The notes beneath the pieces were generated by a model. The model made no database searches, was not told the DNA's origin, and saw only the letters and a list, made by a program, of their open reading frames with translations. Position numbers and translations under genes: made by a program. Shown here in pieces: positions 405 to 63,911 of a stretch of DNA of 64,000 bases. Numbering within the stretch: the stretch's first letter is position 1; the number at the start of each line of letters is the position of its first letter. The stretch is from Syncephalis fuscata (lineage: Eukaryota > Zoopagomycota > Zoopagomycetes > Zoopagales > Piptocephalidaceae), in contig JAHLTZ010000009.1 of the NCBI GenBank assembly GCA_025786725.1, positions 682,001-746,000 on the forward strand, given 5' to 3'.

Positions 405-3400
405 ATGCCTCGAAATGGCGAGGAAATTCTTACCGAAGCCTTTCATCGGCGAGAATACCGTTATTTAGACGACGAACAAGACTTTAACGATCATCTAGAC
501 GATGAAACAACCAATGAAGAAGACGAGAACAACCATAATGAAGAAGGCGACGACGAGAACAGTAACAACAGCAACGAGGAAGAAGACAGCCGTGTATTAG
601 GCCAGTTACACCCGAAGTCACCTTTACTCTTGGCGAATAAGACACAGTCAAATAGTCCACAGCCATTATTGTATAATAATAATAATAATAATAACACTGA
701 TGTTAATAACACTGGTGTTAGTAACAATGACATGACTCCAATTCAATTTATTGCATTATCAAATGTTACAGAAGAGCAATTATCAAGTGGCCATCATATT
801 GTTAATCAGTCCGAACAGCCAAATGCGCCCATCAATGGTCATACAAATACAAATGAACTCCATCCAACTATACCTGTTTCTATGGGCCGTTTAAGTCTAG
901 CATTGGCCGATAACTTGGCAGATACTTATATAGGTAATTTACTTACCAGTGCTGTTTATATCAAATAGTTAGTTAATGTATACATATATAATAGACAGTT
1001 ATAGTGGGCAAATATCAACGATATCCAATGCTCGAAAGCGTCAATCACTGGACTTGTCTAACCAAACAGATAAAACACAGCCTATTGATATGCCAACACA
1101 TTTAAGAGACCAAACATTATCAGATGGAAGAAGCCAATTAAGCCGCAGTCTTAGTCCATCTTTATTAATGTCTGCTACTAATAATAATAATAATAATAAT
1201 GATGATGATGATGTATCATCAAGTAATAGAATGAATGAAATGGCCACAGTATTACTTAGTGATGATGATGAAGAAGCATGTCATTTAAAACAAGGAAAAC
1301 AAATAGCACGATCAAAATCAATTCATCGTCGCTCTGCCAGTTACGGTAATCCATTACAAATATCTACTAACATAGCATCTACATTACACAATATGGCATC
1401 AGTAGACGATACGACAGACACTGCTACACCCACTACACCTACTACACCTACTACACCGCTTAAAACAAAGAAGCCTATGGACAGTAAAACCATGGCTAAA
1501 ATGAAAAGAAAATCTATTGAATTTTCCAATAATCTTACCTGTGTTATTTGCTGTGACTATTATCAACAGCCGGTGCGTCTACGTCGTTGTCGTCATTTAT
1601 TCTGTAGACCATGTATTCTAGCCTCATTGGCCCGTACAAGCACCTGTCCTATTTGTAGAACAAAGACCCGTCAACGTGATTTGGTACCATCAGTACGTAC
1701 AGGCAAACTAGTCGATGCCTACAAGTAAGATGTGATTACGCACCCCGTTGTCGATGGATTGGTCAACGCATAGCACTCGATCAACATTTAAGTGTGGACT
1801 GTCGAGAAGTATTGGTGCCATGTTCAGCGGATCCATTACATCCCGACTGCGCCGATAAATATCCACGTCGTAAAATTAATGCCCATCGACGTATTTGTCG
1901 TTGGCGTATGACACCATGTGCCTTTGGCTGTGGTGAATTATTCTATGATACACGTGCACTTACGCTTCATTGTCAACAACAGTGTTTGAATCGTACAGTG
2001 AATTGTTTGCATTGTGATGCCCAACATTTAGCACGTCATCGTGATAGACATTTACTGACTTGTCCACGCGCCATTATACCTTGTCCACATCAAGCAGCAC
2101 TGGGTACAGCAGCGGGTTGTATGGTGCGTGTAGAACGACGCGACCTGCCTTTACATTTACGGCAATGTCGATTTGAGGATATGAAAGATGTGCTGCGTGG
2201 TGTACGTATTCATTTAAATACACTTACGCGTCGCCAAAGGGCCTCTGAACTAAGATATAAAGCAGAATTACGGCGTATTACGACACTGACACTGCATAGT
2301 AGTGATTTGCGTGATACGTTTCATTTACGTAATCTGTTACGCTTTAATCCGGCTATTCGGGCCCTTCACATTCGTGACTTTCAACCAGGGCCGGCCTGGG
2401 TTCAATTAACTGAGGTACTGCAAGATAATGCATGGCCTATTCATACACTTAATCTGCATGGCAGTACTATTGAAAAGACGGGCGCGGTATTACTGGCCAA
2501 AGCACTGCGTACCAATCAGAGAACGCGTCATTTAATACTTACCGATAACGTTATTGGTGACCAAGGAGTAGAATTCCTAATGAAAGCACTAATGGAAGGC
2601 AGTCAGCCGAATCATTTGAATACAACATCTATAAACATGAATGGCTCGGCGAATACAGCGACTACATCCACCAACACGCCAACTGTTAATAACAGTAACA
2701 ATAGCAACAATAATAACCACAATAGTAATAGTAATAGTACTGGATATAGTGCGTTAAGGCATTGGCCATTTCAACGACCACAAACTACTTTGCGTGACAC
2801 CGCTACTGTTAATGGAAGACAGCCAAATCAACATTATCGACGTACATCGGCACCTGCTGAATCTACTTTACCTAACAATGGACTATCCAATACATTAGGA
2901 TCATCGCCATCAACATCGCTTGGCTCTTCTATAGGCTATCATACAATGCCCACTCAATTAGTAGCATTATCATTGGGCAATACAACATCAAATCAACATG
3001 GACGCTCTAACAGATCAACTCGTCCCACACCGGTATGGCTAGCTCAACAAGGACAAAGCACAATTTCCAATGGTATTAGCACTGCCAGTACAGCGACTAA
3101 TACTAGTGCTGCTGCCACTACTGCTACTGCTACTGGCACTAGCGCTACCGCTAATAACAATAGCAGTAATAACAATCATGGTACTGCACAGCCATGGCCA
3201 ACATTACTAGGACAGCCTGCCTCATTGCCAACTTATTTATATCATCCGCGTAATAGATTAACTACTTTATTACTAAGTGGCTGTTTATTAACTGATAATC
3301 GGCTGAATTACTAGCCCGTGGTCTATCTACACTGCCTCGCCTCCACACACTTGATCTATCATGGAATAGATTTAGACATCGAGGGGCTGAACAAATAGGC

Positions 3401-4524
3401 TATGCACTTAGTACACACCCATCATTGAGGCGGTTTAATTTCTCGGCCAATGATCTGGGCCCTAAAGGCAGTGAGGCATTGGCGGGCATGATTGGCCGTA
3501 ATGCTATTTTACGTGAACTTGATTTATCACGTAACAAGTTAGGTGGTGCTAAAGGATTAGAGGCATGTCACGGGCTCTTAGTCCATCTTTACTAAGAGCA
3601 TCACGTGGTGAAGTGGCTGCATTTAATATTGGTCCATCATCGATGATGTCACATGGACCACGTAAAAGTATTGATCACTCTACAAATTATCAACAACAGA
3701 ATATGGCCAATACAGCTAATTATACAAATCAGCAACCATCTATACCCAATAGTCGATTAAAAACAACATCAACCACCAATGCAACAAATATACGTCAACG
3801 AGCCACCTCTTCACCTAGTCTTAATTTAAATGATCTATTTATGCCACCCACCAATGATACTACTACTAATGCCAATAACAACAACAACAACAGCAGCAGT
3901 AGCAGCAGCAACAATAATAATAATAATAATATGGCATCGGTTTATTCACCATTACCACGTCGTACATCATCTGGTGGTGCAGTGACATCGATAGGTGGTG
4001 GTGCGTCAATGCATCTACCTACGAATACTACACTACGTATACTTCGATTAAATGATAATGCTATTGATGATACGGGTGCTTTACATTTATCACGGGCTCT
4101 GTTAAAACATCCAGGTTTGCGACGTATTGATTTGGCGGATAATCGTATTAGTGATATAGGCATTACCGAACTATTAGACGCCATTTATGAATCGGGTCGA
4201 CCACGTACTCTTCATATACGTGGTAACTCATCGGTGTCGCGTGAACTACAGTATGAAGTAAGTGGACTGGCTCGTGAAGCAGCCATCTACGCCGATCAAT
4301 TAGGCGAACCGATGACCGACGATGAATCATCCCCCTCGACCGATAATACCGATAGTGATAATGATGGTGACGGTGATGGTGGTAATGAAGGCAATAGCTC
4401 TTGGCTAGATGAATATGAACTAGGTGATGAATTGGATAACCTTACATTGCCAGTTTATCATTCAAGAAATGATAGAAATGGGCACACTTCCAAGAAGGAA
4501 ATGTCTACATTGTTTAAAAGATAG
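405..4524 (+). CDS. RING finger / TRAF-type zinc finger / leucine-rich-repeat protein
   Basis: The start is the ATG at 405 (MPRNGEEILTEAF). One intron, 934-994, joins in phase 1. An acidic, Asn-rich N-terminus is followed by a C3HC4 RING finger at 1540-1655 (LTCVICCDYY, CRHLFCRPCI, CPICRTKT), then Cys/His-rich TRAF-type zinc fingers (about 1735-2180). C-terminal to these is an RI-type leucine-rich repeat region (HTLDLSWNRF, ELDLSRNKLG, RRIDLADNRI), broken by long Asn/Ser/Thr spacers, and an acidic tail. RING plus TRAF fingers suggests a ubiquitin ligase or scaffold with the LRR as binding platform; that role is inferred. The frame is one base short near 1725, 3301 and 3564; each shift falls where zinc-finger or LRR homology continues in the next frame. 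Adding three bases gives 1353 codons. Homopolymeric Asn and Asp runs come from AAT, AAC and GAT repeats. I do not recognise an orthologue. Confidence 0.8.
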
Positions 4525-9304: not shown

Positions 9305-10502
9305 TTAAAGTCCATGTCCGTCTTGCGATTTGTGCGTATCCTGCTTACGGCTTTCATGATCACGAGATGCTCCATTTTGGCCATGTTCACCATTTGGTTT
9401 CTTATACTCCATATGCTTATCAAAGAAGCCGCCTCGATGTTCTTGGTCAAATAATAGCTTTTTAAAGTCTTCATTATTCATATCGCGACGGAAACGATGT
9501 TCTTGGCCTGGTCTATGGCTTTCATGGTCACGAGATGCTTCATTTGGGCCATGTTCACCATTTAATTCCTTATGCATTTCAGGACCACGATGATCATTTC
9601 CTTGATGTTCCTTATGCTGGCCAGGGAAGCCACCTCGATGCTCTTGATCAAATGATGACTTTTTAAAGTCTTCATTATTCATATCGCGACGGAAACGATG
9701 TTCTTGGCCTGGTCTATGGCTTTCATGGTCGCGAGATGCTTCATTTGGGCCATGTTCACCATTTAATCCCTTATGCATTTCAGGACCACGATGATCATTT
9801 CCTTGATGTTCCTTATGCTGGCCAGGGAAGCCACCTCGATGCTCTTGGTCAAATGATGACTTTTTAAAGTCTTCATTATTCATATCGCGACGGAAACGGT
9901 GTTCTTGGCCTGGTTTATGGCTTTCATGGTCACGAGATGCTTCATTTGGGCCATGTTCACCATTTAATCCCTTATGCATTTCAGGACCACGATGATCATT
10001 TCCTTGATGTTCCTTATGCTGGCCAGGGAAGCCACCTCGATGCTCTTGATCAAATGATGACTTTTTAAAGTCTTCATTATTCATATCGCGACGGAAACGG
10101 TGTTCTTGGCCTGGTTTATGGCTTTCATGGTCGCGAGATGCTTCATTTGGGCCATGTTCACCATTTAATCCCTTATGCATTTCAGGACCACGATGATCAT
10201 TTCCTTGATGTTCCTTATGCTGGCCAGGGAAGCCACCTCGATGCTCTTGGTCAAATGATGGCTTTTTAAAGTCTTCATTATTCATGTCACGGCGGAGGAG
10301 CTGACCTTGGGGTAAATCATAGTGATTAAATTCACCCTTAATATTATAAAATAGAGAAGAATCTTAATGTCAAAGATTATTAATTAATGTTTATAACAGT
10401 ATGTATGTTTATATTACCTTTGGGGGTAGGCTGTGCGTATATTGTGCCAACCAGGGCAGACAATATATAAGTGGTGGCGACAAGAATGGTAAAGTTACGC
10501 AT
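9305..10502 (-). CDS. Secreted histidine-rich repeat precursor with Kex2-type processing sites
   Basis: The start is the ATG at 10502-10500, opening a signal peptide (MRNFTILVATTYILSALVG). An intron at 10306-10417 joins in phase 1 and gives PTPKGQLLRRDMNNEDF. The mature part is four nearly identical 67-residue repeats plus a shorter degenerate fifth. Each repeat opens with DMNNEDFKK, is rich in His, Gly, Glu and Gln (HRGGFPGQHKEHQG, HRGPEMHKGLNGEHG), and the full repeats end with EHRFRR. The Arg-Arg before Asp at every boundary is the signal of kexin-processed repeat precursors, so the gene may release several identical peptides. High His content could bind metal; function is unknown. The exons sum to 361 residues with no frame problem. 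No modifying enzyme of the RiPP type is recognisable nearby. Confidence 0.75.
9476..10285 (-). repeat. 201-bp tandem repeats inside the histidine-rich precursor
   Basis: Four in-frame copies of about 201 bp, differing by only a few substitutions (for example P/S before the first SF pair and K/R before PGQEH), with a fifth diverged copy at 9305-9475. Near-identity of the copies indicates recent expansion or homogenisation. Confidence 0.85.
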
Positions 10503-13375: not shown

Positions 13376-14317
13376 ATTAAAGTAGCAATAAAAAAAATAA
13401 AAAATTACTGAGTAACAATTTTCTAGCCTATTTTTTATTTTATTATGAAGTTGAAACGTGTGTAATGGCAGTAGAGTAGATAGATGTAAAACACGTTTCA
13501 ATACTCTATATTACTTGGAATAACTCAAATGCAATAAAAAACGCTCATACTGTCAATATTTTTACTCTCCCAGCAATTGTTAGCAATAAATCAATCAAGC
13601 CAGTGCTGAGATCTTACTGTGCGTTGTGTTAATGCATAACTCTGTAGACTGAGCGTCAAACGTTTTTAGGCAGCAGCATTCTATTCACGCAGTATACTCA
13701 TCCATCCTATCTGTCTGTACCACTTCATTCTAACCTGTATACTCAGTGCAACACATGCTGGAAACGCACAGCCAAATGGCGCTGTTACCTTTACAGAACC
13801 AATCGAATTTAATTTGGAAGCATGTGGTGGACTGTGTAACAATATTTTATTTTATTGATTGGTCTTGGACCACACATGTACCATCTAATTGTCACATACA
13901 CGTCATCTGAATGAGTAGGCGTAGGCTCATTAAAGAATACTAAAAAACTGAAATCATGCCTTGTTGTCCGAAATGTATTCCATAGAATCATAGAGATGCA
14001 TCTTGATTGGTGTGAACTGTATCTGCAATGTGCTTTCTGCAGATTTTCTCTTGGTGTAAAAGCATTCCATCCTTCACATGAATATACTTTTATTGGTAGA
14101 AATTGCATGCGCAGTCTATTCTGTGCAATAAAAAACATTCGTCTCTTCACTGTCGCCGTAAACTTAAATAGCCCACATCGATTTGCGATTGCTACTACAC
14201 TTTGTCAACTCCTACACACACTCTCTCTTTTCTACTACATATTATTTACCACTACCATTATTTACTACATACTCTCTCTTTTGGTCTACTTGTCTATTCT
14301 AACAAATCAACATTACC
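13376..14317. other. Intergenic region with one unexplained reading frame
   Basis: Contains a 113-codon minus-strand frame (13809-14150) that opens MKRRMFFIAQNRLRM and includes VTIRWYMCGPRPI; it has ordinary amino-acid composition but no family I recognise. On the plus strand, 13690-13855 reads like a signal peptide end (FILTCILSATHA) followed by GNAQPNGAVTFTEPIEF, but it lacks a start. Either could be an exon or a remnant. The last 130 bases are pyrimidine-rich and form the promoter side of the microexon gene. Confidence 0.3.
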
Positions 14318-15507
14318 ATGAATTTTTCCATTGCTACTGTCTGCACTTTCGTCGTGTTTTTTGTGTCCGGTGTAATCTTGGTGGATGCCATGCCATCCCG
14401 AGGTCGTGGTAATATGCTGTACTTATAAGCAACTATTGCAATATTAACCGTTTAATATTTGTTTATATAAACCGTCTGGAACTGCAGGACTAGTCAGAAG
14501 TAAGGAATTTATATGGACAATTGTATATTTACTAATTTTAATCCACTGTCGATATCGATTTAATAAATGTGTACTTGTAGGAGGTATACTATTTTTATAA
14601 ATAAAATATACAAAGACTGACCACGCAGTATTTTCTGATGTAAATTACTAAACCAATATCAATAGATGAGCCACAAGGTATAGCACGACTATAAATTTTT
14701 AATTATATGGCATTACTAACAATGACTTAAAAACTTTATTATTTATAGACAGTAAGTGACTTTAAAGCACAAATTAGTTAATATTTATGCATGTTATTAT
14801 TAATAATTATTTCTAGATCGTAAGTGGCTTACATTATAATTTCATCAATACCTATACATGTGTATTGTTTATAGTTTGTAAGTTATACTATGAAGCAGTG
14901 CTAGTAATACTTATATAAATGATATTGATTACTTATCATCCACAGTTCGTAAGTCGCATATGAAACTATTGCCAATATTACTTACATAAACTATTCCTTG
15001 CTAACTATTTATAGAACGTAAGTTGCCGGACAGGCCAACACAAATGATATTTACACGTGGTATTGACAACTATTATTTGTAGACAGTAAGTTAAATTAAA
15101 ATTGCTATAAGTAATATTTACATATGCTATTGCTAAACTATTATCAATAGTTTGTAAGCTGCAATAAAAATTACTACCAGTGTTACTTATATATGTTAAC
15201 AATCGAATTTTATTTATAGTTAGTAAGTTACATTAAATTTTAACACTACCGATGTTTACAAGTTTTATTGATAAACTATTATTTGTAGATCGTAAGTTGC
15301 ATTACATTTTAATGCCTTATAATTTATATATCCTACTACCTAATTCTTGTTTACAGAGAGTAAGTTACATAATAAGCTAGTTTCATTAATACTTAAACAT
15401 GTTGCTGGTATTCTACTATTTATAGGAGGTAAGCTGAATTCTATCTGTTTACTTAATCTATTTTATATAAATCTGATCAATAATGTATGTTCATATGATT
15501 AGATTAA
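14318..15507 (+). CDS. Small secreted peptide encoded by a chain of 3-nt microexons
   Basis: Exon 1 (14318-14408) encodes a signal peptide, MNFSIATVCTFVVFFVSGVI then LVDA, followed by MPSRGR and one base. The proposed exons, all joined in phase 1, are: 14488-14499 (12 nt), 14581-14583, 14666-14677 (12 nt), 14749-14751, 14817-14819, 14875-14877, 14946-14948, 15015-15017, 15083-15085, 15151-15153, 15220-15222, 15289-15291, 15357-15359, 15426-15428 and 15503-15507 (ends in TAA). Twelve of sixteen exons are exactly 3 nt, each between a pyrimidine-rich ...TAG or ...CAG acceptor and a GTAAGT/GTAAGC donor (GTATAC after the first). The sum is 156 nt: 51 residues and a stop, with no internal stop. The mature part begins MPSRGRGLVRR; after Arg-Arg comes DEPQDNLFQHIFNQRD, most of its residues added one per exon. 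Arg-Arg before Asp suggests kexin cleavage, as in the gene at 9305. Function unknown; the splice model is inference until tested on RNA. Confidence 0.8.
14678..15502 (+). repeat. Tandem array of about 68-nt intron plus microexon units
   Basis: From 14749 the 3-nt exons start 68, 58, 71, 69, 68, 68, 69, 69, 68 and 69 nt apart. Unit ends are conserved (GTAAGTTRCATTA-like start; CTATTATTTRTAG-like end) while middles have diverged. The array looks like repeated duplication of one intron with its 3-nt exon, followed by divergence of everything except the splice signals. Confidence 0.8.
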
Positions 15508-15976
15508 ATGATCAATCAAGGATGCTGGATCAAAAACCATGGCTGTCATTTAAGCATATTTTAGGTATACGCCTGATTAATAACAAGGTTATTTAACAGC
15601 ACGCTATGTAGTCCCTTGTACACCAAGATCTGGCTTATATCCCGGTCGGTCCACTTTCTAATCGATGGTGCCGTTATATTACTAATAAGATAATATATAT
15701 TATTTATACTAATAAATATTCTTATGCTAATAAACATATCATGATATCTTACAGCTGTGGCATTAATACTTTATTCTTGTTTTTATCTTTACTTGATAGC
15801 AATTAATAGCAAACAAACGGAAAATGCAAACAACAACAAACGCACTCTTATGCGATAAATTATAGAACGGTATAATGGTAAATAGACCAGTACAATCAAT
15901 CCAATTTAACAAAAAAAATAATTGAATTAGACCAGAGTATGATAAATTTTGTTTAAATAAAAAATACAAGTAATAG
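15508..15976. other. 3' flank of the microexon gene
   Basis: AT-rich, with AATAAA-like signals near 15710-15730. The minus-strand frame at 15763-15969 is hydrophobic but has no start context or family support. I see nothing else. Confidence 0.4.
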
Positions 15977-17039: not shown

Positions 17040-17542
17040 TGAATCACTATTTGTTTCAATAACGTGAATAAAGCCGCTATCGCCTTAATTAAAAAAGACA
17101 TCATAAAAAATTGGCCTTTTGTTCAGTCATCTCCCTAGCATAATTGCGTAGCCTTTTATTGCTTTAATTAATGGGTGGGTCTATTTTAAGCTTTACCAGG
17201 CGGTTGTTCAAGATGTTTTCCTTTTTAAGATGTTATAATCAAGCTATTCTACTTATTGAATCCCATGAAAAAATGCATAAAGTACGACAAATAAATAGGC
17301 CTATATTAATTTACTACTTTGCATAATTTAACTAATGGCATAAATCATAAGTTCATTAAATTGTATATTTAAGGCAATCACATATTTTATTTGACTGAAT
17401 TATTAAAAGTTATAGCTATACGCACGACTCTCCATTCAAAAACTTACGGCCTGAATCTCATATTACTCGATCTTAGCTTATCAGCACATCATTTGTTGAA
17501 CTTTTCTTACAAATCATCATTACGTTTTAATCATCATTCAAA
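17040..17542 (+). promoter_or_regulatory. Proximal promoter of the secreted PHVPAPHKPYTP-repeat gene
   Basis: Sequence between the duplicated block and the ATG. It shows weak, gapped similarity to 60855-61589 (for example TTGTTTCAATAACGTGAATA against TTGTTTCAACAACTTGAACA, and shared AAATTGGCCTTT), so the homology of the two loci continues here but at much lower identity than in the block. No defined transcription factor site assigned. Confidence 0.5.
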
Positions 17543-18991
17543 ATGTTTAGCAAGCGTACGACACTGGCCGCAATATTGCTTATCGCTGCAACAAGCAATG
17601 TTTTATCCGTCTCGGGTGCGCCATCTATAGATCACAATGCATCAACTGATCAGCCTACTAGTACTGATGCACCTTTCTTAGGATCGAACTCCGATGCCAG
17701 CAATATCTTTAATAGCCAGCACAAAGACTGTTATGGCAATTTTTTGAAAAAACGTTCTTATAATACTGGCTATGGTAACAATATACCTGTTCCAACCTAT
17801 TCAAATCAGTCACCTCCAGTATATGTACCAGAACCAACCAAGTCATATACGTCTATGCCAACTAAAAGCACTCCAGCGACGGTATCAGAGTCGATTACAA
17901 CGTATATACCTACGTTTACTCCAATATCCCATGCACCTGAGCCATCTAAGCCAAATACACCTGTACCTTCTTCACATAAGCCATATACGCCTATGCCTGC
18001 GCCAAAGCCTCATGTACCTGCTCCACATAAGCCATATACGCCTGTGCCTGCGCCAAAGCCTCATGTACCTGCTCCACATAAGCCATATACGCCTATGCCT
18101 GCGCCAAAGCCTCATGTACCTGCTCCACATAAGCCATATACGCCTGTGCCTGCGCCAAAGCCTCATGTACCTGCTCCACATAAGCCATATACGCCTGTGC
18201 CTGCGCCAAAGCCTCATGTACCTGCTCCACATAAGCCATATACGCCTGTGCCTGCGCCAAAGCCTCATGTACCTGCTCCACATAAGCCATATACGCCTGT
18301 GCCTGCGCCAAAGCCTCATGTACCTGCTCCACATAAGCCATATACGCCTATACCTGCGCCAAAGCCTCATGTACCTGCTCCACATAAGCCATATACGCCT
18401 GTGCCTGCGCCAAAGCCTCATGTACCTGCTCCACATAAGCCATATACGCCTGTGCCTGCGCCAAAGCCTCATGTACCTGCTCCACATAAGCCATATACGC
18501 CTGTGCCTGCGCCAAAGCCTCATGTACCTGCTCCACATAAGCCATATACGCCTGTGCCTGCGCCAAAGCCTCATGTACCTGCTCCACATAAGCCATATAC
18601 GCCTATACCTGCGCCAAAGCCTCATGTACCTACTCCACATAAGCCATATACACCTTATTACCCAGTCAACCGATACGGTAATGGATACTCGCAGTATGGC
18701 TCATATGGTTCTGGTTCCTCAAGCGGCTCATATAATGGATACTCACAATCGTATGACTCTCAATATGGCTCATATGGTTCTGGCTCATATGATTCTAGCT
18801 ATTCAGCCTATCCATATAGTGGATATTCGCAATCTTCCGCACCTCAATATGGATCATATGGCTCTGGCTCATATGGTTCTGATTCTGGTTCATATGGTTC
18901 TAGCTATTCAGCCTATCCATATAGTGGATATTCGCAATCTTCCGCATCTCGATATGGATCATATGGCTCTGGCTCATACAGCGGATACTAG
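17543..18991 (+). CDS. Secreted proline-rich repeat protein (cell-wall or adhesion type)
   Basis: A 482-residue protein on one intact exon. The signal peptide is MFSKRTTLAAILLIAATSNV followed by LSVSG. A short N-terminal segment (STDAPFLGSNSDASNIF, KDCYGNFLKKRSYNTGYG) has one Cys and a KKR dibasic site. Thirteen 17-residue repeats of the form PKPHVPAPHKPYTPVPA follow (V replaced by M or I in some). The C-terminus is Tyr/Gly/Ser-rich, with YGSYGSGSYGS and SAYPYSGYSQSSA units. The composition suits an extended structural protein of the wall or spore surface, possibly O-glycosylated on Thr; this is inference. It is paralogous to the gene at 61590: similar signal peptide, similar position after a duplicated 1.06-kb block, and related 3' flanks. 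Confidence 0.85.
   Translation: MFSKRTTLAAILLIAATSNVLSVSGAPSIDHNASTDQPTSTDAPFLGSNSDASNIFNSQHKDCYGNFLKKRSYNTGYGNNIPVPTYSNQSPPVYVPEPTKSYTSMPTKSTPATVSESITTYIPTFTPISHAPEPSKPNTPVPSSHKPYTPMPAPKPHVPAPHKPYTPVPAPKPHVPAPHKPYTPMPAPKPHVPAPHKPYTPVPAPKPHVPAPHKPYTPVPAPKPHVPAPHKPYTPVPAPKPHVPAPHKPYTPVPAPKPHVPAPHKPYTPIPAPKPHVPAPHKPYTPVPAPKPHVPAPHKPYTPVPAPKPHVPAPHKPYTPVPAPKPHVPAPHKPYTPVPAPKPHVPAPHKPYTPIPAPKPHVPTPHKPYTPYYPVNRYGNGYSQYGSYGSGSSSGSYNGYSQSYDSQYGSYGSGSYDSSYSAYPYSGYSQSSAPQYGSYGSGSYGSDSGSYGSSYSAYPYSGYSQSSASRYGSYGSGSYSGY
17976..18651 (+). repeat. 51-bp tandem repeats coding PKPHVPAPHKPYTPVPA
   Basis: Thirteen near-perfect 51-bp units. Variation is almost confined to the single residue after YTP (GTG, ATG or ATA) and one GCT to ACT change in the last unit. 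Such uniformity means recent expansion and probable length variation between strains. The open frames on other strands and phases here are repeat shadows. Confidence 0.9.
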
Positions 18992-61589: not shown

Positions 61590-63911
61590 ATGCTTAGTAA
61601 GCGTATAATATTTGCGGCTGCATTACTTGCAGCAGCAACAAACAGTGTTTTATCTGTTTCAGGCGCACCACCTACTAATCAAGACACATCAACAAACCAA
61701 TCCAAAGATATTGACGTTTCCTTTTTAGGATGGCATTTTAAAACTAATAGCGTTCCTGACAATCAACAAGGAAACAGTGACGACAACGTTACTTTCTGGA
61801 CCATTGAAGGCCCAAATGGCAAAAAAATCAGCGGAGAATTACATAATACGCCGAAATCTAATAAAGATCTTGATAATAACGATGGTTCTACTGGTAAGGA
61901 ATATACCTAAATAACAACAGTGTAACTCATAGCCATTTAGATGAAAATGCTAAAACTATTCAAACCAACAAGCACGTTAATTTAAAAAGTGATACTCAGA
62001 CGATAATGGTGATCAGTCAGAAGCTAATACACTAATTGATGAAGTAAACGACGAAACAAATGCTAATTTTATGCAGACGCAGTTTGATGAAAATATTAAC
62101 GAAACTAATGATGCCGTAAATAGTGCCAATTTTGCTAGCTTTACTTCTGGCCATGGTAGACATAAACCAGCTCCACATCATCCAGTTCCATCTCATCCAA
62201 GACATCCAACTCCACCACACCCACATCGCCCTCCACCATCCAGGCCTGCCCCCACCCACCACATCATCCACCACATCATCCACCACATCATCCACCGGCA
62301 CCTAGACCAGTCCCACCAAGGCCAGCACCGCCACCGGCACCTAGACCAGTCCCACCAAGGCCAGCACCGCCACCAGCACCTAGACCAGTCCCACCAAGGC
62401 CAGCACCGCCACCAGCACCTAGACCGGTCCCACCAAGGCCAGCTCCAGCACCGCCTAAGCCAGCACCACCAGCTCCAAAGCCAGCACCACCAGCTCCAAA
62501 GCCAGCACCACCTAAGCCAGCACCAGTACCGCCTAAGCCGGCACCACCAGCACCAAAGCCAGCACCACCTAAGCCAGCACCAGTACCGCCTAAGCCGGCA
62601 CCACCAGCACCAAAGCCAGCACCACCTAAGCCAGCACCAGTACCACCTAAGCCGGCACCACCAGCTCCAAAGCCAGCACCACCAGCTCCAAAGCCAGCAC
62701 CGCCAGCTCCAAAGCCAGCACCACCAGCTCCAAAGCCAGCACCACCTAAGCCAGCTCCAGTACCGCCTAAGCCGGCACCACCAGCTCCAAAGCCAGCACC
62801 ACCTAAGCCAGCACCAGTACCACCTAAGCCGGCACCACCAGCTCCAAAGCCAGCACCACCTAAGCCAGCACCAGTACCGCCTAAGCCGGCACCACCAGCT
62901 CCAAAGCCAGCACCACCTAAGCCAGCACCAGTACCGCCTAAGCCGGCACCACCAGTTCCAAAGCCAGCACCACCAGTACCAAAGCCAGCACCACCTAAGC
63001 CAGCACCAGTACCACCTAAGCCGGCACCACCAGCACCAAAGCCAGCACCACCTAAGCCAGCTCCAGTACCGCCTAAGCCGGCACCACCAGTACCAAAGCC
63101 AGCACCACCTAAGCCAGTACCAGTACCACCTAAGCCGGCACCACCAGCTCCAAAGCCAGCACCACCAGCTCCAAAGCCAGCACCACCAGCTCCAAAGCCA
63201 GCACCACCAGCTCCAAAGCCAGCACCACCTAAGCCAGCTCCAGTACCGCCTAAGCCAGCTCCAGCACCACCAGCACCACCAGCACCAGTGCCAGAGCCAC
63301 CTAAGCCAGCTCCAGCACCACCAGCACCAGTGCCAGAGCCACCTAAGCCAGCGCCAGCACCACCAGCACCAGTGCCAGAGCCACCTAAGCCAGCGCCAGC
63401 ACCACCAGCACCAGTGCCAGAGCCACCTAAGCCAGCGCCAGCACCACCAGCACCAGTGCCAGAGCCACCTAAGCCAGCGCCAGCACCACCAGCACCAGTG
63501 CCAGAGCCACCTAAGCCAGCGCCAGCACCACCAGCACCAGTGCCAGAACCACCTAAGCCAGCGCCAGCACCACCAGCACCAGTGCCAGAGCCACCTAAGC
63601 CAGCGCCAGCACCACCAGCACCAGTGCCAGAACCACCTAAGCCAGCGCCAGCACCACCAGCACCAGTGCCAGAGCCACCTAAGCCAGCGCCAGCACCACC
63701 AGCACCAGTGCCAGAACCACCTAAATATCCATTCTACCCACCTAGCGGATACCCGCAAGCACCAGTACCTCAACCTGGTCCATACGTGCCTAGCTATCCA
63801 GCCTATCCATATGGTGGATACTCACCACCACCAACATCTCAACGTGGTTCATACGGATCTAGCAATCCAGTGAATGGAAATTCAAGATATCGTGGCTATC
63901 GTCGCAGATAG
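61590..63911 (+). CDS. Secreted proline-rich repeat protein, paralogue of the 17543 gene
   Basis: A signal peptide (MLSKRIIFAAALLAAATNSV, LSVSG) related to that of the 17543 gene is followed by an Asn/Asp-rich segment (DIDVSFLGWHFKTN, FWTIEGPNGKKISGEL). After it come PAPRPVPPRPAPP units, KPAPPAPKPAPP / KPAPVPPKPAPP units and twelve or so KPAPAPPAPVPEPP units. The C-terminus (YPFYPPSGYPQAPVPQPGPY, GYRRR) keeps the Tyr/Pro/Gly style of the paralogue. The frame is one base short near 61900, 61998 and 62252; with three bases added the length is 774 residues and the true frame runs unbroken from 62292 to the stop. The long His/Gln/Ser-rich frame at 62071-63873 is the repeat read out of frame. Likely a wall or surface protein; function unknown. 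Confidence 0.75.
62292..63721 (+). repeat. Proline-rich coding minisatellite
   Basis: Tandem 36- to 45-bp units built on CCAGCACCA and CCTAAGCCA words. Two zones: mixed PAPKPAPP/PVPPKPAPP units (62292-63260), then a homogeneous zone of 42-bp units (63280-63721). Expected to vary in length between strains. Confidence 0.85.

Follow-up and report, generated by a model that had tools for sequence, protein, structure and literature searches.

A predicted gene of 3-nt exons in the window

The window (i.e. the whole 64,000-nt stretch of DNA analysed from Syncephalis fuscata, a zoopagomycote fungus) contains, on its forward strand at 14318-15507, a gene whose sequence can be read as 16 exons, twelve of which are 3 nt long. 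The signal-peptide exon comes first and is followed by exons of 12, 3 and 12 nt, by eleven further 3-nt exons (14749 to 15428) and by a last exon of 5 nt. Exon 1 (MNFSIATVCTFVVFFVSGVILVDAMPSRGRG; 14318..14408) aligns with the corresponding exon of the family described below and ends in phase 1; its assignment as a signal-peptide exon rests on a hydrophobic N-terminus that is conserved in the family alignment rather than on a signal-peptide predictor. The second exon, GACTAGTCAGAA (14488..14499), encodes LVRR with a Kex2-like RR site and has an alternative in-phase acceptor that would yield a shorter exon at 14494-14499. It is followed by GAG (14581..14583) and the 12-nt exon ATGAGCCACAAG (14666..14677). 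The eleven consecutive triplets are ACA (14749..14751), ATC (14817..14819), TTT (14875..14877), TTC (14946..14948), AAC (15015..15017), ACA (15083..15085), TTT (15151..15153), TTA (15220..15222), ATC (15289..15291), AGA (15357..15359) and GAG (15426..15428), after which the last exon, ATTAA (15503..15507), completes an Asp codon and provides the TAA stop. Joining of these exons gives 156 nt, encoding 51 residues plus TAA, and the predicted mature part, DEPQDNLFQHIFNQRD, is devoid of cysteine. In this predicted model most of the coding sequence after exon 1 lies in consecutive very small exons, which is how a micro-exon gene is defined.

A first-pass annotation of this DNA had proposed the same layout of twelve 3-nt microexons with a 156-nt, 51-residue frame ending in TAA, and all 16 exons were recovered at the positions given there. 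Its argument that eleven splice-site pairs spaced 3 nt apart were very unlikely to have arisen by chance was upheld by simulation: strict [CT]AG-NNN-GTAAG[TC] units occurred eleven times in 14300-15520, whereas 2000 dinucleotide shuffles contained 0.022 such units on average and never more than 2. Weaker donors (i.e. GTAATA, GTAAGG, GTATAC and GTATAG, respectively) follow exons 1 to 4. Upstream on the same strand, a TATA-like promoter element, TTAAATAGCCCACA, is present at 14164..14177 and corresponds to an element carried by most family promoters in the family alignment (TTTAAATAGCCCACAAAATATACACA). A leader, AACAAATCAACAT (14301..14313), lies immediately 5' of the ATG and is common to array and intronless family members.

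Distribution of the 3-nt exon pattern in the genome

Matches to AGNNNGTAAGT numbered 5490 genome-wide as compared to 1147 for the reversed pattern. Paired AG-NNN-GTAAGT units with 3-nt exons and a separation of 55-85 nt were found 3133 times in the genome, versus 21 times for the reversed-pattern control; 6-nt exons gave 101 such pairs (control 16), whereas 5-nt exons gave 29 (control 18). Triple units occurred 2280 times for 3 nt (control 0) and were absent for 4 nt. Spacing by 3 nt thus characterises the genome as a whole and not just one locus. An average of 16.9 unit pairs was present in each of 26 array loci, so that 3133 pairs would correspond to roughly 185 arrays, a rough figure as the sample was mostly picked by pattern, some loci were cut off and some contigs are possibly duplicate haplotypes.

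The nearest [CT]AG was located exactly 3 nt upstream for 345 of the 358 GTAAGT donors lying 50-110 nt after another donor in 20 loci, these loci having been chosen by the 3-nt pattern itself. Gene models of usable appearance were obtained for 15 of the 26 array loci, with several models extending to the limit of the fetched sequence. Internal exons of 3 nt accounted for 361 of the 382 in these 15 models, with 322 GTAAGT donors and 367 TAG acceptors, ends of this type being favoured by the model-builder. Intron length was 73-80 nt in 401 of 461 introns. The model for one locus (L043) comprised 44 exons, 40 of them of 3 nt.

Exons of 6 nt were observed at set positions, namely the fourth and seventh exons of L047, L066, C225 and C261 and the sixth of C239. 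Matches to the 6-nt pattern in the genome often had the acceptor TATTAG in place of TATTAATAG, as if the acceptor had shifted 3 nt upstream. Recent duplicates were seen for arrays at C1:475 kb and C1:534 kb and at C2:226 kb and C2:245 kb, and whole exon units had been gained or lost between the C1 copies. Some duplicate arrays lie on several small contigs, which are possibly alternative haplotypes.

Exon 1, promoters and membership of the family

An exon 1 of the form MKLSIAVVCTIVVALVASTAMVDAKPALVRRG was present upstream of the array in 13 of the first 20 loci; some of the other seven end before exon 1, and that of L055 looks frameshifted. This array gene, with its apparently frameshifted exon 1 at about 1425-1520 (gene orientation), is probably a pseudogene. 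A genome search with the exon-1 peptide returned 345 candidate places, and all 150 that were scored matched with an E-value of 3e-8 or better. The first-pass view of a single gene was thus too narrow, since at least 150 matching exon-1 places exist in the genome and some of these are intronless. Every one of 20 exon-1 places with a short open frame was an array (18 with at least two triplets and 2 with one, in 741 bases). The first 20 places with longer frames comprised 12 intronless members, 7 arrays and 1 unreadable place, and another 20 comprised 10 intronless members, 1 possibly intronless member (50 residues), 6 arrays and 3 unreadable places, numbers that do not give the true ratio of arrays to intronless members as the places were chosen non-randomly. 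Two further intronless members were identified besides those of these two samples.

Intronless members have the same signal peptide, usually an RR site and a mostly cysteine-rich peptide in a single open frame. For loci with enough upstream sequence, the TATA-like element was found in 21 of 24 array loci and 11 of 13 intronless loci. A 3' motif that follows the stop of the intronless member L063 also marks the ends of the models for L043, L051 and C239, with that of C1b falling within 4 nt; the motif was favoured by the model-builder, and a builder lacking the motif placed the ends of L043 and L051 at the same positions.

In a Pfam scan of 16 peptides of the family, no Pfam entry was hit by two or more of them (best E-value, 0.0096). 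A profile search of 5.8 billion proteins, with E-values up to 10 and a sensitivity limited to shared 5-residue words, returned 12 proteins, all from S. fuscata. Matches in the PDB to plant vicilin-derived peptides had E-values of 1.9 to 9 and ranked behind two growth-factor chains (1.3 and 1.4); we take these vicilin-derived entries to have the alpha-hairpinin fold (i.e. CXXXC...CXXXC in a helical hairpin). An AlphaFold model of one intronless member was too poor to use (mean pLDDT of 59.9).

Reading phase of the arrays

The donor of exon 1 was in phase 1 in all 48 array loci, near-duplicates included. Further phase tests were performed on 43 arrays containing 526 triplets and 440 junction codons, 8 near-duplicates having been dropped. 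Only 2 of the 440 junction codons were stops in phase 1, both at array ends, as compared to 17.2 in within-run triplet shuffles, none of 2000 shuffles being as low; stops in phase 2 were not depleted (27 versus 27.6 in shuffles). An earlier sample had given 2 phase-1 stops in 348 codons versus 14.2 in shuffles. Cysteine was encoded by 49 of the 440 phase-1 codons, exceeding both the shuffled mean of 27.1 and the maximum of 39 in 2000 shuffles. When 14 intronless members served as the reference, codon usage was correlated in phase 1 (rho = 0.69) but not in phase 0 (0.00) or phase 2 (-0.28). These results support a phase-1 reading of the arrays, as predicted from their sequences. The first-pass proposal for the window gene of a signal-peptide exon followed by constant phase-1 joining to the stop is borne out by the family-wide phase of the exon-1 donor, by the depletion of phase-1 stops and by the intronless paralogues described below.

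A phase-0 reading, with one exon as one codon, had been prompted by hydrophobic triplet readings in some arrays (e.g. L055). This candidate was rejected because exon 1 invariably ends in phase 1, because codon usage is mismatched and because it is the phase-1 reading that matches the intronless members. Stop triplets were also absent from phase 0 (0 of 526; 4.6 expected in a first sample of 385), an absence that we would attribute to a putative cause in the rarity of NTA codons in phase 1.

Peptides spelled by arrays and encoded by intronless paralogues

Two arrays were fetched in full, one of which (C239) was selected after its exon 1 (locus L075) grouped with those of the intronless members L063 and L067 (98/86). 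The C239 model has 37 exons, 34 of 3 nt, and spells KDPAKCNQCMSQCYGNYPYPSQA..., with the spliced product giving ...VRRAKDPAKCNQCMSQCYGNYPYPSQAINDCPKRCAKQCK and ending at the family 3' motif, an end favoured by the model-builder. Its best match was an intronless protein annotated at NCBI, P0126 (KDPAKLCDKCIDKCHKNYPYPSLATRYCLGYCRKECDT), with a score of 109, whereas 1000 triplet shuffles reached no more than 56 and 1000 residue shuffles no more than 68. The next matches were L107, L071 and L082, and not L063. A blind whole-genome search with spliced C239 produced only two hits (E = 7.7e-6), both in continuous frames, on C212 and C104; P0126 is carried by a contig equal in length to C212. The other array fetched in full, C261, matched intronless members no better than shuffles did. 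A second array, L052, has a model that extends to the limit of the fetched sequence; its spliced product (CGLACNNPSRGG...CTYSECMGK) matched that of intronless L081 (CDRACNRPSRGG...CTYSECMEK) with a score of 90 (at most 50 in 500 shuffles), and a blind genome search with it gave one hit, at L081. Blind genome searches with spliced L043 and C1b produced no match.

Of 17 spliced arrays compared with the intronless members, six (i.e. C239, L052, L043, L066, C1b and L049) reached a level of 1 in 500 or better, and 11, including the window gene, fell short of it. With an HMM of 11 intronless peptides, phase-1 readings took the top seven places, with an E-value below 0.01 in one only, and several phase-1 readings scored no better than shuffles. 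The recurrence in intronless members of peptides spelled by some of the arrays provides indirect but decisive support, at the level of sequence, for the arrays being spliced as read. The mature peptide of the window gene had no detectable match among intronless members (431 of 500 shuffles were as good), and hence the case for this locus is made by its own sequence together with the family, of which it is a predicted divergent member.

Predicted splicing and processing

With a probability of about 0.9, the window locus is a member of a large S. fuscata family of secreted peptide precursors in which phase-1 arrays of 3-nt exons are spliced to encode the mature peptide. The signal peptide, which is conserved, would be supplied by exon 1, in most cases together with an Arg-Arg site of the Kex2 type. 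The mature peptide would often be rich in cysteine and would be specified by symmetric phase-1 exons of 3 nt, with as many as about 40 in succession. Nearly every residue would be encoded by a codon split over one intron, drawing its first base from the end of one exon and the other two from the following exon. Introns, ~78 nt in length and for the most part bounded by a GTAAGT donor and a TTAATAG-like acceptor, would be excised singly. As an exon of 3 nt is too short for recognition across the exon, the introns would be defined by their own ends, making intron definition with near-perfect donors the likely mechanism, and the near-perfect donor may compensate for the absent contribution of the exon. 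Kex2 cuts at Arg-Arg in secreted precursors. A short peptide, in many cases carrying disulphides, would be set free once the signal peptide had been removed and RR had been cut by a Kex2-type protease; its function is most likely that of an effector or toxin against fungal hosts. The number of cysteines was even in 10 of the 12 models with cysteines and odd in C225 and C261, both of which extend to the limit of the fetched sequence; L052, which also reaches that limit, has an even number.

History of the arrays and of the intronless members

Intron 1 had an identity of 0.743 between genes (40 genes) as compared to 0.693 for internal introns, and its identity with the internal introns of its own gene was 0.616. 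Given this position-specific likeness, the arrays seem to have had a common ancestor that was itself an array, and the pattern points to descent by gene duplication. An exon-1 tree of 58 regions (204 columns, with open forks and unrooted) showed intronless members to be scattered, with 10 state changes (12.8 with shuffled labels), at least four of which were forced by well supported branches. Intronless members have probably derived from array genes several times. The simplest route would be recombination of a gene with its own spliced cDNA, which accounts for loss of all introns with retention of the promoter. If intronless genes did arise from spliced cDNA, they would constitute a genomic record of arrays spliced as read.

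An opposite history, with identical splicing, would make the intronless form ancestral and have introner-like elements later put an intron in nearly every codon. Promoters common to intronless and array genes are compatible with such a history, as is the flat relationship of intron likeness to distance (0.761 for adjacent introns and 0.756 at lag 10), which resembles the outcome of an insertion burst. However, the greater likeness of intron 1 across genes favours one array ancestor, and the scatter of intronless members would demand many independent gains of dozens of same-phase introns. Late insertion is unlikely on this evidence, albeit with an appreciable chance of being correct.

Given the same flat profile of intron likeness, a main origin of the arrays by tandem duplication of exon-intron units, one step at a time, is not supported. 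In L042, nonetheless, a five-exon unit is repeated at 2820-3622 (AAT CCG AAT CTA CTC twice, then AAT) and residues appear to have been added in blocks. A faster evolution of exons than of introns was considered as triplets look random between arrays whose introns are alike; this was rejected, with 57 of 60 triplets being identical in truly collinear unit pairs. As the first exon-versus-intron comparison had mixed non-homologous units, no acceleration is claimed. Two duplicated array pairs differed at 0 of 168 acceptor positions and 2 of 346 donor positions, a conservation of splice sites that gives weak support to splicing of the arrays, since the aligned units show a divergence of only about 2% across the introns as well.

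An element starting TTTTGAAGAGCTTG was observed inside array introns of L062 (about 450-860, gene orientation), L039 (about 3530) and L042 (about 850). The L062 copy is retroposon-like, having a T-rich end, a GGTTTGAACC box and a 15-bp flanking duplication that is single in L054. We suspect from its motifs that this is a tRNA-derived SINE; ARAGORN detected no tRNA in the L062-type element. The presence of a retroposon-like insert with a target-site duplication in L062 as compared to L054 suggests that reverse transcription has been active.

Alternative readings of the arrays and of the window gene

Arrays could act mainly through alternative splicing, with 3-nt exons skipped in combination to produce a library of peptide variants from each locus. 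All of the 3-nt exons are symmetric, meaning that skipping would preserve the frame, and the similarity of the introns could allow the choice of donor or acceptor to slip. Against this, it is full inclusion that gives an even number of cysteines in the 10 of 12 models, and spacings in the better matches are like those of intronless members, both of which suggest that selection acts on the full product. A main role for variant production is accordingly unlikely.

The window gene could also be a decaying, untranscribed relic of the family. Its long branch in the exon-1 tree, weaker first donors and a mature part with no homologue detected would fit with decay; the frame, however, is open to the stop across 15 introns, and eleven strong donors and acceptors have been retained together with the promoter and leader elements, making a relic distinctly improbable. 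Recursive splice sites have zero nucleotides between acceptor and donor. It is very improbable that the arrays are tandem repeats within one long intron, with exon 1 joined directly to the last exon and the units serving as decoys or stepping stones for recursive splicing, as the repeat-like likeness of introns within arrays (mean identity of 0.747) is outweighed by the exactly three nucleotides between acceptor and donor, by the otherwise unexplained phase-specific stop depletion, cysteine excess and codon usage, and by the triplets spelling peptides present in intronless members.

Representation in public annotation

Four NCBI proteins (P0124, P0125, P0130 and P0131) were exact whole-length matches to intronless loci. 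Three others, P0121, P0122 and P0127, are two-piece models at the array loci L065, C256 and C239, respectively, in which the 3-nt exons were missed; the second piece of P0127 starts at a 3-nt exon and continues into the intron after it, so that P0127 contains translated intron. P0123 looks similar to these two-piece models. No fully spliced array was present among the 12 listed family proteins, comprising four intronless, three two-piece and five incompletely traced cases. On the predicted models, the traced array genes are mis-modelled publicly. Public models seem to be lacking for most array genes, there being 12 proteins for at least 150 exon-1 places in a search limited by length and shared words.

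Comparison with known systems

Work on schistosome micro-exon genes (MEGs) describes 35 Schistosoma mansoni genes with exons of 3-81 bp and introns of up to 5 kbp (PMC10526429). As portrayed there, MEGs resemble the present genes in encoding parasite secreted proteins with a signal-peptide start and chains of very small exons in one superfamily (PMC10526429). S. fuscata differs in having internal exons almost all of exactly 3 nt, introns of ~78 nt, a family with at least 150 exon-1 places, and intronless members, and in being a fungus. The bicycle genes of aphids form a large family of fast-diverging putative effectors, in which many of the internal exons are unusually small and nearly all are of one phase, and so share with the S. 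fuscata family both small same-phase exons and a putative effector character (PMC9168663). Neither MEG nor bicycle proteins were found as homologues in the 5.8-billion-protein profile search, limited as it was to shared 5-residue words. Bicycle exons are tens of bases long and not single codons, and bicycle genes differ from the S. fuscata family in phase, kingdom and protein. By architecture, the S. fuscata genes are of the same kind as schistosome MEGs and aphid bicycle genes, at an extreme limit, with no link of descent found.

Introners are mobile introns that give rise to many similar introns in one genome, related copies lying at independent insertion sites with target-site duplications or having dispersed to unrelated genes. 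The array introns of S. fuscata are likewise similar to one another, the comparison for the arrays covering likeness and position. Filamentous fungi splice very small exons, examples in the excerpts consulted being Trichoderma Xlr2 and the one-nucleotide exon of Fusarium CYP621A, each with one microexon per gene as compared to dozens in succession in the S. fuscata arrays (PMC11121469, PMC12940212). Neither this gene family nor its layout was found described in the literature searched, a scope without preprints and most subscription journals, and the writing of single codons per exon is unmatched among known micro-exon families found there.

Implications and neighbouring frames

Exons in these genes are reduced to the length of a single codon, dozens of them within a gene and thousands across the genome, providing a test case for how a spliceosome handles exons too short for simultaneous binding of both ends. 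The arrays indicate that effector-like families can nearly escape gene prediction, and the intronless paralogues allow the loss or gain of introns to be studied as a natural experiment. Syncephalis is a mycoparasitic genus whose genomes reportedly seem to contain few secondary-metabolite genes (PMC10386755); array peptides may be weapons of the mycoparasite against other fungi. We tentatively propose, at somewhat less than even odds, that exons used as codons constitute a gene format encoding a hidden arsenal of perhaps 200 arrays, in which residues are added, lost or skipped as exon-intron units with the frame intact and spliced cDNA is repeatedly rewritten as intronless genes, the arrays being the diversifying form and the intronless genes the fixed form.

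Other frames in the window include, on the reverse strand at 9305-10363, an open frame with RRDMNNEDFKK five times in ~65-residue repeats, presumably a Kex2-processed repeat precursor. On the forward strand, 17531-18991 and 61590-63911 encode two related proline-rich secreted proteins about 44 kb apart, with long tandem repeats (PAPKPHVPAPHKPYTPV and PPKPAPVPPKPAP) and similar N-termini ending in VLSVSGAP.
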